Position numbers and translations under genes: made by a program. This document shows positions 28,858 through 35,319 of a stretch of 35,711 nucleotides of DNA, piece by piece; the first letter of the stretch is position 1, and the number at the start of each line of letters is the position of its first letter. The stretch lies in the NCBI GenBank assembly GCA_022565805.1, contig JAIULZ010000030.1, positions 1 through 35,711 on the forward strand, given 5' to 3'. The DNA comes from Balneolales bacterium (lineage in GTDB: Bacteria; Bacteroidota; Rhodothermia; Balneolales; Cyclonatronaceae). The notes below the pieces were generated by a model. That model saw only the letters and a list, made by a program, of their open reading frames with translations, made no database searches and was not told where the DNA came from.

Positions 28858-29826
28858 ATGAATACTATACTAAAACTACCTTACACTTTATTCAGACCTG
28901 TTTATGAAAAAACCTCTTTTCATAAATCAGTTATTGATGAAGTACCCACAGTAGGGTTAAGGCAAGCTTATACCCATTGCAGGAAAATAACCAGGGAATA
29001 TGCAAAAACTTTCTATTTGGCAACAAGGTTATTGCCAAACAAAAAGCAACGCTCCATTTTTGCTGTATATGCTCTGTGTCGCTTCATTGATGACTTAGTA
29101 GACGAAGCCGAAGATTTAATTTTAAATAAAGAATTAAGCATTACAGAGATTCAGGCAAAACTCGATGAATTAAAAGAAATGTTGGTTTGCACCTACAACG
29201 GAGAGACTATCGAGCATCCAATACTGTATGCCTTATCCGATGTTCTTCGCACCTACCACATACCAATTAAGTATCCGCTTGAGCTTATGGAAGGGGTTTC
29301 TATGGATTTAACCAAGTCCCGTTATGCAAACTTTGATGAACTTTATGATTATAGCTATAAAGTTGCATCTGTTGTGGGTTTAATGGTAAGCGAAATTTTT
29401 GGCTATTCTGATAAAAAAGCCTTGACTCATGCAATAAGTCTTGGTATTGGAATGCAGCTCACCAACATCCTGCGAGATATTGGAGAAGACCTAACGCGAA
29501 ATCGAATTTATCTGCCACAAAATGAACTTGCGGAATTTGGAATATCAGAAGAAGATTTATTCAGCCACAAAATTGATGATAAATTTATTTCTTTCATGGA
29601 GTTTCAGATTAAACGTGCCGAGCATTATTACGAGGACGCCGATTTAGGTATACCACTACTTTCACGTGATAGCAGGTATCCTGTTGCCATGGCTAGGGTT
29701 AATTACAGTAAAATTCTAACACGAATTCGTAATAACAATTACGACGTTTTTACTCAAAGAGCCTATCTTACAACCACCGAAAAGCTATCTATGATCCCCA
29801 AAGTATGGTGGGCTAACCGGGTTTAA
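28858..29826 (+). CDS. crtB: Phytoene/squalene synthase family protein (phytoene synthase)
   Basis: This 322-aa head-to-head prenyl synthase condenses two geranylgeranyl diphosphates to phytoene, the first step of carotenoid synthesis. Both Asp-rich motifs are present: DDLVDEAED (Asp78, Asp82) and NILRDIGED (Asp207, Asp211), with RNRIYLPQNEL after the second and FYLATRLLPNKKQRSIFAVYALCRFIDD before the first. The motifs fit CrtB better than squalene synthase, but HpnC/HpnD-type enzymes cannot be excluded. No desaturase (crtI) or other carotenoid gene is near. ATG 28858 is chosen. A strong terminator follows. Confidence 0.88.
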   Translation: MNTILKLPYTLFRPVYEKTSFHKSVIDEVPTVGLRQAYTHCRKITREYAKTFYLATRLLPNKKQRSIFAVYALCRFIDDLVDEAEDLILNKELSITEIQAKLDELKEMLVCTYNGETIEHPILYALSDVLRTYHIPIKYPLELMEGVSMDLTKSRYANFDELYDYSYKVASVVGLMVSEIFGYSDKKALTHAISLGIGMQLTNILRDIGEDLTRNRIYLPQNELAEFGISEEDLFSHKIDDKFISFMEFQIKRAEHYYEDADLGIPLLSRDSRYPVAMARVNYSKILTRIRNNNYDVFTQRAYLTTTEKLSMIPKVWWANRV

Positions 29827-30265
29827 CTATCAATTTTATTGTTAAAGCGCTTTTATGATTAAATATGCATAAAAGCGCTTTTTTGTTTTATAAGGAAGGC
29901 TTTTGAAGTATATTTCAGATAGACCAATCGAATAAACTTTTAAAACAAGCCTGATATCTGTTGATAGGGGCTGCTATCAAAAGAACTTGTTATAATACTG
30001 ATCAAATAGGTTCTTACAGCCTTGCCTAAAAAATGACGTACTTTATTTGAATAAACGGAGGCCAGAGCTTACCATTTGAGGGTACTATAAGTATACTTTG
30101 TATTAAATAAGCACTATCACAATTGGAAATTAACAAAAACAGCACTATAGAATTATGCCTTTTCAGACTATATAGGGCAAACAAAAGGGATTTGTAAGGG
30201 TCTTTTGAAAATCCCTTTAAACATTAATATTCAATCCTTCCACCACATTAAAGCAGGTAATTACA
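29827..30265. other. 439-bp gap after crtB
   Basis: After the crtB terminator no gene is seen. A 7-bp hairpin TTGATAG/CTATCAA with loop GGGCTG lies at 29961-29980. It may belong to the leader of the pseudo-esterase gene. Confidence 0.45.
29844..29890 (+). terminator. Strong terminator after crtB
   Basis: A perfect 14-bp stem (AAAGCGCTTTTATG, 29844-29857, with CATAAAAGCGCTTT, 29868-29881) is followed by TTTTTGTTTTA. Confidence 0.93.
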
Positions 30266-30970
30266 ATGAAATTTGAGTCTATTAACTGGCAAAGCCCGAG
30301 TTTGGGTAGTAAAGTTACTGTTCGTGTTGCCGGCAATGCTGGAACACCCGTAATTATTTTGGCCGATACCGAGTATATTAAAAATGAAGCCTTGCTTGCC
30401 GAGAAGCTTGCCTATCAAATTAAAGAAGACCATAATGTACTTATAATAGTACCAGCAGAATTAGTTAGTCCTATTTTCGATACTACCGTTAAACCGGAAT
30501 CAAGGCTAGTACAGTATCTACATGTTGAATCTTTTATAACCGATGAACTAATTCCCCGACTTGTAAAGGATTACAGCAATAACTTCATCATTTTAGCTGG
30601 TGTTGGCAGATTTGCATATGTGGCTGCAAATCTTGTGTTTCGATTTCCTGAGAAAGTGGGCAAATTAATTTCAATTTCAGGCTTATATGATATGCGCCCG
30701 GGCTTTAACGGCGCAGAATCTGTAGATTATTACTACAATAACCCCGTCGAGTACCTTCCTCATCTTAATGAAGAATCTATTTTAAAGGAACTTACTGCAA
30801 CCGATATCAGGATTGTTTCACATAAACAGGATCCTAATAAATTTCAGGCCGAGAGCATTAGTGATTTTTTAAATCATAAATCTATTTATCACGATTTAGA
30901 TGTTTGGGGTGATGAAACGACTTTTTGTGAGGAAACTTTTTCTCTAATGCTTGCTAAACATGTGCCCTAG
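30266..30970 (+). CDS. Catalytically dead esterase-family (alpha/beta-hydrolase) protein
   Basis: This 234-aa protein aligns by eye with the putative-esterase family of alpha/beta hydrolases: NWQSPSLGSKVTVRVAGNAGTPV at the start, FPEKVGKLISISGLYDMR and YYNNPVEYLPHL in the middle, DIRIVSHKQDP and HHDLDVWGD-like end (YHDLDVWGDE). The nucleophile elbow, usually GCSFGGY in this family, is GVGRFAY (112-118), so the Ser position is Gly114. The C-terminal GHDWPWW, carrying the catalytic His, is replaced by TFCEETF (Phe220 at the His position). It should be a pseudoenzyme, with a binding or regulatory role. It is cytosolic, starts at ATG 30266 and stands alone before a structured gap and accC. Confidence 0.78.
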   Translation: MKFESINWQSPSLGSKVTVRVAGNAGTPVIILADTEYIKNEALLAEKLAYQIKEDHNVLIIVPAELVSPIFDTTVKPESRLVQYLHVESFITDELIPRLVKDYSNNFIILAGVGRFAYVAANLVFRFPEKVGKLISISGLYDMRPGFNGAESVDYYYNNPVEYLPHLNEESILKELTATDIRIVSHKQDPNKFQAESISDFLNHKSIYHDLDVWGDETTFCEETFSLMLAKHVP

Positions 30971-31270
30971 ATTGTTTTATAACTAGAATGGCAGTTAACT
31001 TTTATTTTTAAATTCTTTCCGATAGCCTTTATTTTAGCTTTTGAAGGCTTTGAGTAACCTTCTCCGGGTTGTCTCTTCGACGCCCGATCAAAAATAGAAT
31101 CAGAGTCTTCTACGCTTCAAAGTCGAAGACTCTGCTTTGGTTTGAGGAAGAAGACAGCCAAAGCAAAGAAATGGTTTTTCAGAGCCATCTCTTTTTTGAT
31201 ATTACGTAGAGCTTGTTGCAAAGCTATTTCATTTATTAGTGTTGTACTGTATTCATGATTTTCAATTATT
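30971..31270. other. 300-bp gap rich in hairpins: structured leader before accC
   Basis: Five stems are seen. (A) AGCCTT 31024-31029 with AAGGCT 31044-31049. (B) the bulged-C hairpin 31042-31063, which competes with A for the same bases. (C) CGGG/CCCG plus GTC/GAC at 31065-31086. (D) a perfect 10-bp CAGAGTCTTC (31101-31110) with GAAGACTCTG (31125-31134). (E) TGCTTTGG (31133-31140) with CCAAAGCA (31158-31165). No terminator T-run follows D or E on the plus strand; on the minus strand D is followed by ATTCTATTTTT. No ORF is supported. Confidence 0.55.
31042..31063 (+). repeat. Bulged-C hairpin element, copy 2
   Basis: GAAGG-C-TTT-GAGT-AA-CCTTC repeats the design of the element at 21996-22017: the same five-bp GAAGG/CCTTC clamp, the same bulged C and T/A upper stem, with differences only in the loop. 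It lies 207 bp before accC. Confidence 0.45.
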
Positions 31271-32791
31271 ATGCCAGATATTTCTAAAGTATTAATCGCT
31301 AACAGGGGAGAAATAGCTGTTCGGGTAATCCGTAGCTGCAAACACCTGGGTATAAAAACGGTAGCGGTCTATTCCGAACCAGATTCTTCAATGCCACACG
31401 TACTTTTGGCAGACGAGGCTGTACATATTGGTGAGGCCGCCTCATCAGCCAGCTATCTTGTAACAGATAAAATTATAGGTGCTGCTAAAAAAACGGGGGC
31501 AGATGCCATTCATCCTGGTTACGGCTTCTTGAGTGAAAACGCATCATTTGCAAAAAGATGCAGGGAAGAAGGTATAATTTTTATAGGTCCGTCGCCCGAA
31601 GCTATTGAAGCAATGGGAGATAAAACCAAGGCTCGGGAGCTTATGGAAAAACACGGTGTACCGCTTCCACCCGGAACAGCTTCTGCTTTAAAGGATATAG
31701 CCGAAGCCGAAAGTGTAGCAGAAAGAATTGGCTATCCTGTTATGATTAAAGCGGCTGCCGGCGGAGGGGGTAAAGGAATGCGCATTGTTCATCGTAAGGA
31801 AGATTTCACCTCTTCTATTCGTACCGCTAAATCTGAGGCCATGAGCGCGTTTGGTGACGACAGGGTTTATGTAGAAAAATACCTGGAAAATCCTCGTCAT
31901 ATTGAGTTTCAAATTATGGCAGACACTCACGGAAATGTGCTGCATTTCTTCGACCGGGAATGTTCCGTACAGCGAAGGCATCAAAAAGTAGTAGAAGAAG
32001 CTCCTAGTCCTTTTTTAGATAATACAATGCGGCAAGATATGGCCGCTGTAGCTGTAAAAGTAGCGAAAAGTTGCGGGTATACCGGCGCAGGTACTGTAGA
32101 GTTTCTGGCCGACAAACACCGTAATTTTTATTTTCTGGAAATGAATACACGCCTGCAGGTTGAACATCCCGTTACCGAATCAATTACAGGTTACGATCTC
32201 GTAGAGCTTCAAATCAAGGTGGCTGAAGGTAAAAAACTCGAGATTAGTCAGGACGATCTATTTATTAAAGGCCACGCTATAGAATGCCGTATTTGTGCTG
32301 AAGACCCAGCGGAAAATTTTATGCCAAGTACAGGCTATCTAAAACGCTTTTCGCCTCCTTCAGGTATTGGCGTGCGCGTAGATGAAGGCATCGAATCGAA
32401 CCGTACAGTTTCAATCAATTATGACCCGCTTCTTGCAAAACTAATTACCTATGGTAAAGACCGTGATCAGGCTATAAGAAGAATGAAAACAGCGCTCGAA
32501 GAGTTTGAGGTTGACGGTTGTAAAACAACAATCCCATTTTGCCATTTTACCATGAAACATCCCGTTTTTCAATCAGGTAATTATGACACTCACTTTATTG
32601 GCCAATATTATAAGCCTGCGCAGCTTATTCAGGAAAATGGGGATGATAATATTGATTCTGCTGCAATTCTTGCCGCAGCTTTAATCGCTGCGAATAGTAG
32701 TAAATCGCATATGGATCTTGCTAAAAGCGAAAGTAATGGACATGGCTCTAACGCTAATGGATCACTTTGGTGGACAAAAAGAGTTCGATGA
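31271..32791 (+). CDS. accC: Biotin carboxylase (acetyl/propionyl-CoA carboxylase type)
   Basis: This 506-aa ATP-grasp enzyme carboxylates biotin on a carrier protein using bicarbonate and ATP. Motifs: KVLIANRGEIAVRVIRSC (6-23), HPGYGFLSENASFA, IGPSPEAIEAMGDK, the glycine-rich AAAGGGGKGMRIV, FDRECSVQRRHQKVVEEAPS, and the catalytic LEMNTRLQVEHPVTE. It extends about 50 aa beyond the usual 450-aa AccC, with an Ala-rich helix and a Ser/Asn/Gly-rich tail ending WWTKRVR, as in some Bacteroidota acyl-CoA carboxylases. No biotin carrier protein or carboxyltransferase gene is adjacent. ATG 31271 is used. The leader is rich in hairpins. Confidence 0.95.
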   Translation: MPDISKVLIANRGEIAVRVIRSCKHLGIKTVAVYSEPDSSMPHVLLADEAVHIGEAASSASYLVTDKIIGAAKKTGADAIHPGYGFLSENASFAKRCREEGIIFIGPSPEAIEAMGDKTKARELMEKHGVPLPPGTASALKDIAEAESVAERIGYPVMIKAAAGGGGKGMRIVHRKEDFTSSIRTAKSEAMSAFGDDRVYVEKYLENPRHIEFQIMADTHGNVLHFFDRECSVQRRHQKVVEEAPSPFLDNTMRQDMAAVAVKVAKSCGYTGAGTVEFLADKHRNFYFLEMNTRLQVEHPVTESITGYDLVELQIKVAEGKKLEISQDDLFIKGHAIECRICAEDPAENFMPSTGYLKRFSPPSGIGVRVDEGIESNRTVSINYDPLLAKLITYGKDRDQAIRRMKTALEEFEVDGCKTTIPFCHFTMKHPVFQSGNYDTHFIGQYYKPAQLIQENGDDNIDSAAILAAALIAANSSKSHMDLAKSESNGHGSNANGSLWWTKRVR

Positions 32792-32936: not shown

Positions 32937-33866
32937 ATGAACTCTCTTTTTGAGCAGCTAAAAGCCCTTGATACCGAGCAAATAAATTTGTCGACCAGCA
33001 GAATTGATCAGGTAAATACCCTTGAAATGGTTCGGTTAATGAATGCTGAGGATGCTAAAGTAGCGGGATATGTTCAGAAAAAAGAAAAAGAAATTGCTGA
33101 AGCTATCGATGTAATCACCTCATCATTCCGAAACGGTGGTCGCCTAATCTACTGTGGAGCAGGCACTAGTGGGCGAATTGCTATAACAGATGCTTCTGAA
33201 TGCCCGCCAACTTTTGGTGTTTCTCCCGATATGGTTACCGCTTTAATTGCCGGAGGCAAAAGCGCAGTATTTCAGGCTGTTGAAGGTGCGGAAGACAATC
33301 CGGAGGCCGGCGCTCAGGATCTTGATACCATTAGTATTAATCATAATGATGTGGTATGTGGTTTGGCTGCAAGCGGCAGAACACCTTATGTTGCAGGAGC
33401 ATTACACAAAGCATCATCAATTGTCTGTAGAACAATACTTATATGCTGTGTACCGGCATCGCAGCTACCACATGAAATGAATGCAGATATTATAATTGAT
33501 ATTCCTGTTGGACCGGAGGTTATTGCAGGCAGCACAAGGCTCAAAAGTGGTACCGCTCAGAAAATGGTCTGTAACATGCTAACGACGGGTAGCATGATAC
33601 TGCTGGGTAAAACATATGGGAATATTATGGTTGATCTGCAGTTGAGTAATAAAAAATTGGTAGAAAGAGCTCGTCGCGTAGTAATGGATATTACAGGTTT
33701 ATCATATGCGCAGGCGGTTTCTGCTTTAAAAGAGTGTAATGGGCACGTAAAAACGGCTATATTGATGGGTCTAACCGGTCTTTCTGCGCAAGAATCATCT
33801 ATCTTGCTTAATCGTAATCGTGGCAGAATCTCTGCCGCAGTCGAAAGCATTCATAAACGACCTTAA
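32937..33866 (+). CDS. murQ: N-acetylmuramic acid 6-phosphate etherase
   Basis: This 309-aa SIS-fold enzyme cleaves the lactyl ether of MurNAc-6-phosphate to give GlcNAc-6-phosphate and D-lactate in cell-wall recycling. The SIS domain has RLIYCGAGTSGRIAITDASECPPTFG (69-94), with Glu88, and AVEGAEDNPEAG, with Glu118; both correspond to the catalytic Glu residues of MurQ. A UBA-like C-terminal end (LSYAQAVSALKECNGHVKTAILMGLTGLSAQESSILLNRN) is typical. No sugar kinase or MurP transporter is adjacent. It leads a probable operon murQ-plsC-TonB-like (gaps 14 and 29 bp). Confidence 0.96.
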   Translation: MNSLFEQLKALDTEQINLSTSRIDQVNTLEMVRLMNAEDAKVAGYVQKKEKEIAEAIDVITSSFRNGGRLIYCGAGTSGRIAITDASECPPTFGVSPDMVTALIAGGKSAVFQAVEGAEDNPEAGAQDLDTISINHNDVVCGLAASGRTPYVAGALHKASSIVCRTILICCVPASQLPHEMNADIIIDIPVGPEVIAGSTRLKSGTAQKMVCNMLTTGSMILLGKTYGNIMVDLQLSNKKLVERARRVVMDITGLSYAQAVSALKECNGHVKTAILMGLTGLSAQESSILLNRNRGRISAAVESIHKRP

Positions 33867-33880
33867 CTAAATACGTATAC

Positions 33881-34624
33881 ATGAATCATTTGCTAAGCGC
33901 AATACTATGGGTAATCTACGGCTTTTCATTTGTTTTGTCTTTTTTAACTGGATTAGTTGTTCGCATTTTTACATTTCCATTCGATAAATTTAACCGCTAC
34001 CCAAACGCAGTGATGATGTTTTTCGGCAAGTCTATTATTGTGTGTAATCCATTTTGGAAGAAACACTATTTCGGACTAGAAAAACTTGATAACAGGGTAC
34101 CGGGGTATATCCGGGTCGCAAATCATCAAAGTTTTCTTGACATGCCCTTGTTGGCCACTCTGCCCACAAACATGAAATGGATATCAAAAAAAGAGCTTTT
34201 TAAAATACCTATCGTAGGCTGGATTATGTCGTTAGCCGGACACATTTCTGTAGACAGGGGCGCTAAAGGCGCTGCTAAATCACTACTTGCGATGAATGCA
34301 CCTATAGAATGCGGAACAAGTGTCATGATATTTCCAGAAGGAACGAGATCCCGGGAGGGTAAGTTAAAACCTTTTAAGAAAGGCGCATTTTACTCCTCCT
34401 TTGATAACAAGTTCGACATACAACCAATCGTTATTGAAGGAACTTATAAATGCATGAAACCCGACACATGGGTAATGAATCTGACCGGTAATTTATATGT
34501 TTCGGTCCTCGAGCCCATTAGCCCGGAAAACTTTAGCTCTGTAGATGAACTAACAAACCATGTATTTAATGTGATTAAGCAAGAGTCTGACAGATTGCAG
34601 AGTCTTGATAATAAAAATACATAA
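33881..34624 (+). CDS. plsC: 1-acyl-sn-glycerol-3-phosphate acyltransferase
   Basis: This 247-aa membrane-anchored enzyme adds the second acyl chain to lysophosphatidic acid, making phosphatidic acid. One hydrophobic N-terminal helix (about 6-30) precedes the acyltransferase domain: the HX4D motif is NHQSFLD (His82, Asp87), then the substrate pocket segment NMKWISKKELFKIPIVGW, FPEGTRSREGKLKPFKKGAFY (from 151) and IQPIVIEG. These are the four blocks of the LPLAT family. Length fits. It lies 14 bp after murQ, so both are probably transcribed together. Confidence 0.95.
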   Translation: MNHLLSAILWVIYGFSFVLSFLTGLVVRIFTFPFDKFNRYPNAVMMFFGKSIIVCNPFWKKHYFGLEKLDNRVPGYIRVANHQSFLDMPLLATLPTNMKWISKKELFKIPIVGWIMSLAGHISVDRGAKGAAKSLLAMNAPIECGTSVMIFPEGTRSREGKLKPFKKGAFYSSFDNKFDIQPIVIEGTYKCMKPDTWVMNLTGNLYVSVLEPISPENFSSVDELTNHVFNVIKQESDRLQSLDNKNT

Positions 34625-34653: not shown

Positions 34654-35319
34654 ATGCATTCCCTTAATAGCTTTACAGAATCCATTTTATATCGCCATAA
34701 AGTGATGGGGGCTATTTGCGTAGTTTTAATACTGATGAATTGTATTTTTAAGCTTTGGCCTATCGATGAATTATCCAGTTCCGTATCTCATCAGGAGACA
34801 TCTGCAGAGGCGCTGTTGCTTGAAACTCCGGTAGCCACAACACATACAGCTCGCAGTATAGCTCCTGCAAGACCATTCATCCCCTCAGAAATTCCAGATG
34901 ATAACGTCATTGAAGATGAAATTGATTGGGATTTTGCCGGTTTAAGTAAAGATTTTGGGGAAGATCTGATCCCTGAAGTTAAAGATATTAGTAATGCGGT
35001 ACGAATAGTTGAGCAGCCCGACAGAACCCCACGAGTAAGAAGAATTGTGGAAGCAGTAACACCGGCAGAAGCTAGAGACCTTGACTACAGAGTAGAGGTT
35101 ACAGTAAACTTATTGGTTATGCCAGATGGATCCGTAGCTGACGTTACCATTACAGATATAGTTAAAATTTTTCCAGATGAAAGGCGTGAATCTGTTGATG
35201 CCATTGGTTTTGGCATTATGGAAGCAAGCATGCGAGCAGCAGCGCTTTGGCAGTTTATACCAGCCTTATACGAAGGTGAGCAAGTAGGCAGCTATTCCGT
35301 TCATCGATTCATTTTTTAA
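34654..35319 (+). CDS. TonB-like energy-transducer protein
   Basis: This 221-aa protein has one N-terminal transmembrane helix (about 17-35, VMGAICVVLILMNCIFKLW) and an acidic periplasmic linker (about 36-140) that is less proline-rich than in classical TonB. The C-terminal domain fits the TonB_C fold: RVEVTVNLLVMPDGSVADVTITD, then a helix with MEASMRAAALWQF and IPALYEGEQVGSYSVHRFIF as the last strands. The usual YP motif is not evident. It is likely inner-membrane anchored, contacting outer-membrane proteins or a paralogous role. No exbB/exbD lies near. It follows plsC by 29 bp, suggesting the third operon place. Confidence 0.8.
   Translation: MHSLNSFTESILYRHKVMGAICVVLILMNCIFKLWPIDELSSSVSHQETSAEALLLETPVATTHTARSIAPARPFIPSEIPDDNVIEDEIDWDFAGLSKDFGEDLIPEVKDISNAVRIVEQPDRTPRVRRIVEAVTPAEARDLDYRVEVTVNLLVMPDGSVADVTITDIVKIFPDERRESVDAIGFGIMEASMRAAALWQFIPALYEGEQVGSYSVHRFIF

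Follow-up and report, generated by a model that had tools for sequence, protein, structure and literature searches.

The gene considered here lies on the forward strand of a 35,711-nucleotide stretch of Balneolales DNA (the window) and forms an open reading frame that runs from ATG to stop, encodes 234 amino acids and contains no internal stop. Its relatives fall into two paralogue groups, the a-type, which includes the window gene and lacks the nucleophile Ser of esterases, and the b-type, which bears it. The gene, the sites within it that bear on its function and its neighbours are as follows.

28858-29826, forward strand: squalene/phytoene synthase family gene, the conserved upstream neighbour (Pfam SQS_PSY, synteny)
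30266-30970, forward strand: a-type (Ser-less) esterase-fold protein of 234 amino acids (open reading frame, Pfam Esterase, AlphaFold, Foldseek)
30599-30613, forward strand: nucleophile elbow, residues 112-116, GVGRF where the active paralogue has GASFG, with Ser replaced by Gly114 and the second Gly by Phe116 (alignment)
30830-30832, forward strand: Asp189, the kept triad acid (the column is Asp throughout the Ser-bearing Balneolales paralogues and in 36 of the 38 distinct members of the clade)
30920-30940, forward strand: former His loop, residues 219-225, TFCEETF, with His replaced by Phe220 (HDWPAW in the paralogue; alignment)
31271-32791, forward strand: biotin carboxylase subunit, the usual downstream neighbour (synteny)
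32937-33866, forward strand: N-acetylmuramic acid 6-phosphate etherase (murQ), conserved downstream (synteny)
33881-34624, forward strand: PlsC-type acyltransferase, downstream in family f1 and some other families (Pfam Acyltransferase, synteny)
34654-35319, forward strand: TonB C-terminal-like protein, conserved downstream (synteny, and a weak Pfam TonB_C match of 22.8 bits against a cut-off of 24.6)

This order is typical of a-type loci in families f1, f3 and f4, where purC and lacI on the reverse strand are followed on the forward strand by phytoene synthase, the a-type gene, biotin carboxylase, murQ, plsC and the tonB-like gene, with plsC absent from some loci. In the gene-less Balneolaceae genera and the f5 genome G014 that were examined, phytoene synthase directly adjoins biotin carboxylase. 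The gaps flanking the window gene are large, 439 bp upstream (29827-30265) and 300 bp downstream (30971-31270); five congeners and a close relative have downstream gaps of 72-159 bp. Scans for promoters and terminators around the gene gave no clear excess over shuffled sequences. The biotin carboxylase of the window carries about 55 additional C-terminal residues and, because a separate copy in the same genome adjoins a BCCP-like gene (contig C50), is a second, stand-alone one.

The protein matches the Pfam Esterase family (PF00756) from residue 10 to residue 171 with a score of 22.6 bits, marginally above the cut-off of 22, and the same family is matched at E<=0.001 by 27 of 33 clade members. 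An IPI_T4 match in Pfam (E 0.02, under the cut-off) was set aside as due to chance, no NCBIfam model for the protein was found, a single-protein sequence search of the PDB returned chance matches only (antibody chains, E 0.17) and no relatives were found among viral contigs. An AlphaFold model, built from the window protein together with 30 relatives, has a pLDDT of 93.2 and a pTM of 0.91, and its best Foldseek matches are solved esterases, namely Bacteroides feruloyl esterases (E 2.5e-11 against 7xrt), S-formylglutathione hydrolases and antigen 85. As modelled, the alpha/beta-hydrolase fold is intact. No signal peptide is evident in the protein, which is presumably cytoplasmic.

Reading of the DNA alone had proposed that both the Ser nucleophile and the catalytic His are replaced, and both losses, together with the fold, were upheld when the protein was compared by HMM and structure with the Pfam Esterase family and with its orthologues. 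In alignments with Ser-bearing homologues, Ser117 of the b-type paralogue encoded in the same genome corresponds to Gly114 in the window protein, His223 corresponds to Phe220, and the triad acid Asp192 is kept as Asp189. The family profile places the nucleophile column on Ser150 of the solved esterase BT_4077 (GLSMGG in 7xrt), whose S150A mutant is also in the PDB (GLAMGG in 7xrv), and the correct catalytic column was therefore inspected. No Ser, Cys or Thr occurs at or adjoining the nucleophile position of the window protein. Furthermore, the second Gly of the elbow, which all 143 other sequences in an alignment of 144 homologues have, is replaced by Phe116, making the window copy the most degenerate of the clade at this site and the sole one without that Gly. 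Of the features that define a serine esterase, the protein thus has the triad Asp and lacks both the GxSxG Ser and the triad His; judged from these residues, classical catalysis would be impossible and the protein is presumably inactive. The family match alone would label it an esterase, but the comparative evidence says otherwise. The kept Asp189, the lost second Gly, the intact paralogue in the same genome and the ancient, clade-wide state described below are additions to what the first reading had claimed.

Relatives were present in 39 of 60 related genomes searched; the nearest belong to Balneolales and Bacteroidota, and the nearest named ones are Balneolales/Balneolia metagenome-assembled genomes. 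Among 38 distinct a-type genes none has the nucleophile Ser, the position being occupied by G, D, H, F, A, N or R, and the Asp column holds Asp in 36 and the His column still holds His in five. Loss of Ser is common to the whole order-wide Balneolales clade and is not private to the window gene. In a tree calculated with the catalytic columns masked, the a-type genes were monophyletic (bootstrap/SH-aLRT 97/93), and a grouping of them with the Ser-less paralogues of family f22 was rejected (p-AU 5e-7); therefore, it was concluded that Ser was lost once in the Balneolales clade and separately elsewhere. In a larger, quickly built tree five changes were needed in total. The loss is placed long ago, in an ancestor of an entire group of salt-lake bacteria. 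Literature searches found no description of a Ser-less Balneolales clade. Elsewhere in the phylum, the f22 genes (loci L168, L179, L188, L192 and L193) make up a second, independent Ser-less clade of the same esterase family, and one further homologue (L142, genome G073) has exchanged Ser for Gly (TGCGFGAYH) with HDW retained, a loss of Ser only.

The variety of residues at the nucleophile position also bears on whether the protein might still be an enzyme, using another nucleophile or carrying out a non-hydrolytic reaction through the kept Asp. The near-universal retention of that Asp in the clade, a predicted fold that keeps its pocket, the His that five members have at the old His column and, in the window protein, a His (His186) three residues ahead of Asp189 would all suit such an activity. 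However, the replacement of Ser is inconsistent, from which it follows that no alternative nucleophile stands at this position; no new clade-wide polar residue was found at the site, and the window protein lacks Ser and His and has Phe in place of the elbow Gly. An alternative catalytic site is accordingly considered improbable.

Selection on the gene was assessed from several directions. Ratios of nonsynonymous to synonymous change (omega, NG86) were 0.04-0.15 in close pairs of Ser-less genes vs 0.03-0.05 in Ser-bearing pairs, close pairs being few. The window protein shares 42-46% amino acid identity with its congeners, and matching at fourfold sites is 14-37%, which is about random. Its distance to the outgroup G009 is 1.76 compared with 1.52-1.84 for the congeners, so that lineage-specific acceleration was not seen, and an initial suspicion that its long branch reflects decay was dropped, as the neighbouring genes of this species also lie on long branches and the outgroup distance is ordinary. 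Orthologue frames were open throughout, both in relatives and in the phylum searches. The gene is maintained under purifying selection and is not decaying, in agreement with the first reading, which had rejected decay from the lack of stops and frameshifts. These findings weigh against the view that it is a relic under relaxed selection and heading for loss, a fate that the degenerate elbow of the window copy, the drift at many sites and the clean absence of the gene from several Balneolaceae genera and the single f5 genome inspected at the locus might otherwise suggest. Because it is cleanly absent there, the gene is dispensable in those lineages, but the low omega values, the conserved protein beside randomized fourfold sites, the open frames and the unexceptional outgroup distance make the relic explanation quite unlikely.

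A comparison of 39 alignment rows of the a-type with 24 from Ser-bearing genes indicated where the remaining constraint lies. Thirty positions are fixed alike in both sets; Asp189, portions of YxNNP and glycines and prolines of the scaffold are among them. At another 33 the Ser-bearing set is fixed but the a-type is not, and these include Ser117, Phe118, His223 and Asp224 as well as Ser34/Ser35/Gly37/Arg38 and Asp66/Val68/Ser72/Tyr74. One (type-II) position is fixed differently between the sets, and five are fixed in the a-type only. At the level of sequence, this pattern is that expected of a fold kept and an active site fallen into disuse. The sequence-only reading had held that the rest of the protein is conserved, which is correct for the scaffold but not for the 33 drifted positions. 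Its suggestion of selection for a non-catalytic function in binding a ligand or protein agrees with the intact fold and the purifying selection, but binding itself would be a deduction, and the rows compared revealed no pocket or surface newly conserved in the clade.

The b-type paralogue in the same genome (contig C105, 11319-12032) has a Ser-Asp-His triad and is 28% identical to the window protein over 236 residues. The two proteins are of equal length, belong to the same family and share the motifs SPSLG, YxNNP and LDVWGD, but the b-type keeps GASFG, GDHD/GEWD and HDW, whereas the window protein is without GASFG and HDW. Their surroundings also differ, in that the a-type lies mostly between phytoene synthase and biotin carboxylase/murQ, and the b-type sits in a conserved, same-strand cluster (C105, 6897-12032; locus L079, also L080, L081, L083 and L085) that encodes the Ser-bearing esterase, a RimK-like ATP-grasp protein, a protein of 450-474 amino acids for which no Pfam or PDB match was found, a class I glutamine amidotransferase-like protein and a second PF00756 esterase. 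The cluster has the look of a pathway for a small peptide or amide metabolite.

Coexistence of the two copies in family f1, own genome included, raises the question of a classic pseudoenzyme-enzyme pair, in which the window protein would be a regulatory subunit of, or form a heteromer with, its Ser-bearing paralogue. Near-complete f4 and f3 genomes (G036, G044, G047, G055, G058, G015, G012 and G031), however, have just the Ser-less copy, f5 genomes have just the active one and the neighbourhoods of the two genes are unrelated, leaving such a pairing exceedingly unlikely. A role as accessory subunit to the neighbouring biotin carboxylase would fit the position of that gene downstream in most a-type loci examined, several of them with the two genes <=10 bp apart or overlapping. 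Against this, the a-type gene and murQ are adjacent in G012, G015 and G031 with no biotin carboxylase between them, no orthologue of the carboxylase was found in G015 and many f4 and f5 genomes have the carboxylase but not the a-type gene; this role is judged very unlikely. Since the a-type gene persists where either is missing, it does not depend obligatorily on the active paralogue or on biotin carboxylase.

The explanation that we favour is that the window gene encodes a maintained non-catalytic alpha/beta-hydrolase, or pseudo-esterase, which probably works by binding in the cytoplasm. It has what distinguishes such proteins: a kept fold, a lost nucleophile and purifying selection. A gene for a Ser-Asp-His esterase would have been duplicated in the Balneolales ancestor, one duplicate settling between phytoene synthase and biotin carboxylase/murQ and there losing its nucleophile Ser, once. 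Selection would then have kept the fold as the old active site drifted, with the scaffold serving to bind a protein partner or small ligand in place of chemistry. Such a binding role is the most likely one because the fold is intact and selected while the former active site drifts, and it is suggested also by analogy with the mycobacterial protein MPT51. A more specific proposal is that the order-wide clade, anchored beside genes for carotenoid, fatty acid and cell-wall recycling functions, has acquired a new non-enzymatic role in regulation or ligand sensing that is independent of the active paralogue; this is possible but tentative, and on balance doubtful. These proteins offer a natural series for the study of fold retention after loss of catalysis: one genome encodes both an active and a dead form, the loss happened once at the base of their clade, other losses occurred independently elsewhere in the phylum, and sister genera do without the gene.

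Dead enzymes kept for another job are a familiar phenomenon, and there is good support for placing the window protein among the known non-catalytic alpha/beta-hydrolases. The solved structures closest to its model and to the family profile, the Bacteroides feruloyl esterases BT_4077 (7xrt) and Bacint_04212 (5vol), are active serine esterases that share 10-15% identity with it. The f22 paralogues belong to the same esterase family and have likewise lost Ser, but form a separate clade. The closest precedent is MPT51 (FbpC1, PDB 1r88), a paralogue of antigen 85 in M. tuberculosis that is termed a 'non-catalytic alpha/beta hydrolase' (Wilson et al., 2004, as cited in a passage of PMC6119806) and is regarded as non-catalytic elsewhere as well (PMC3485045). 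The model of the window protein matches 1r88 with a Foldseek E of 7.3e-9 and a TM of 0.73 at 14% identity. This low identity, together with the Balneolales and Bacteroidota affinities of its nearest relatives, ruled out membership in the MPT51/antigen 85 lineage proper. MPT51 is mycobacterial and a proposed binder of extracellular matrix, whereas the window protein is of separate origin, but in both cases a protein of esterase fold that lacks a functional catalytic site has arisen beside active paralogues.
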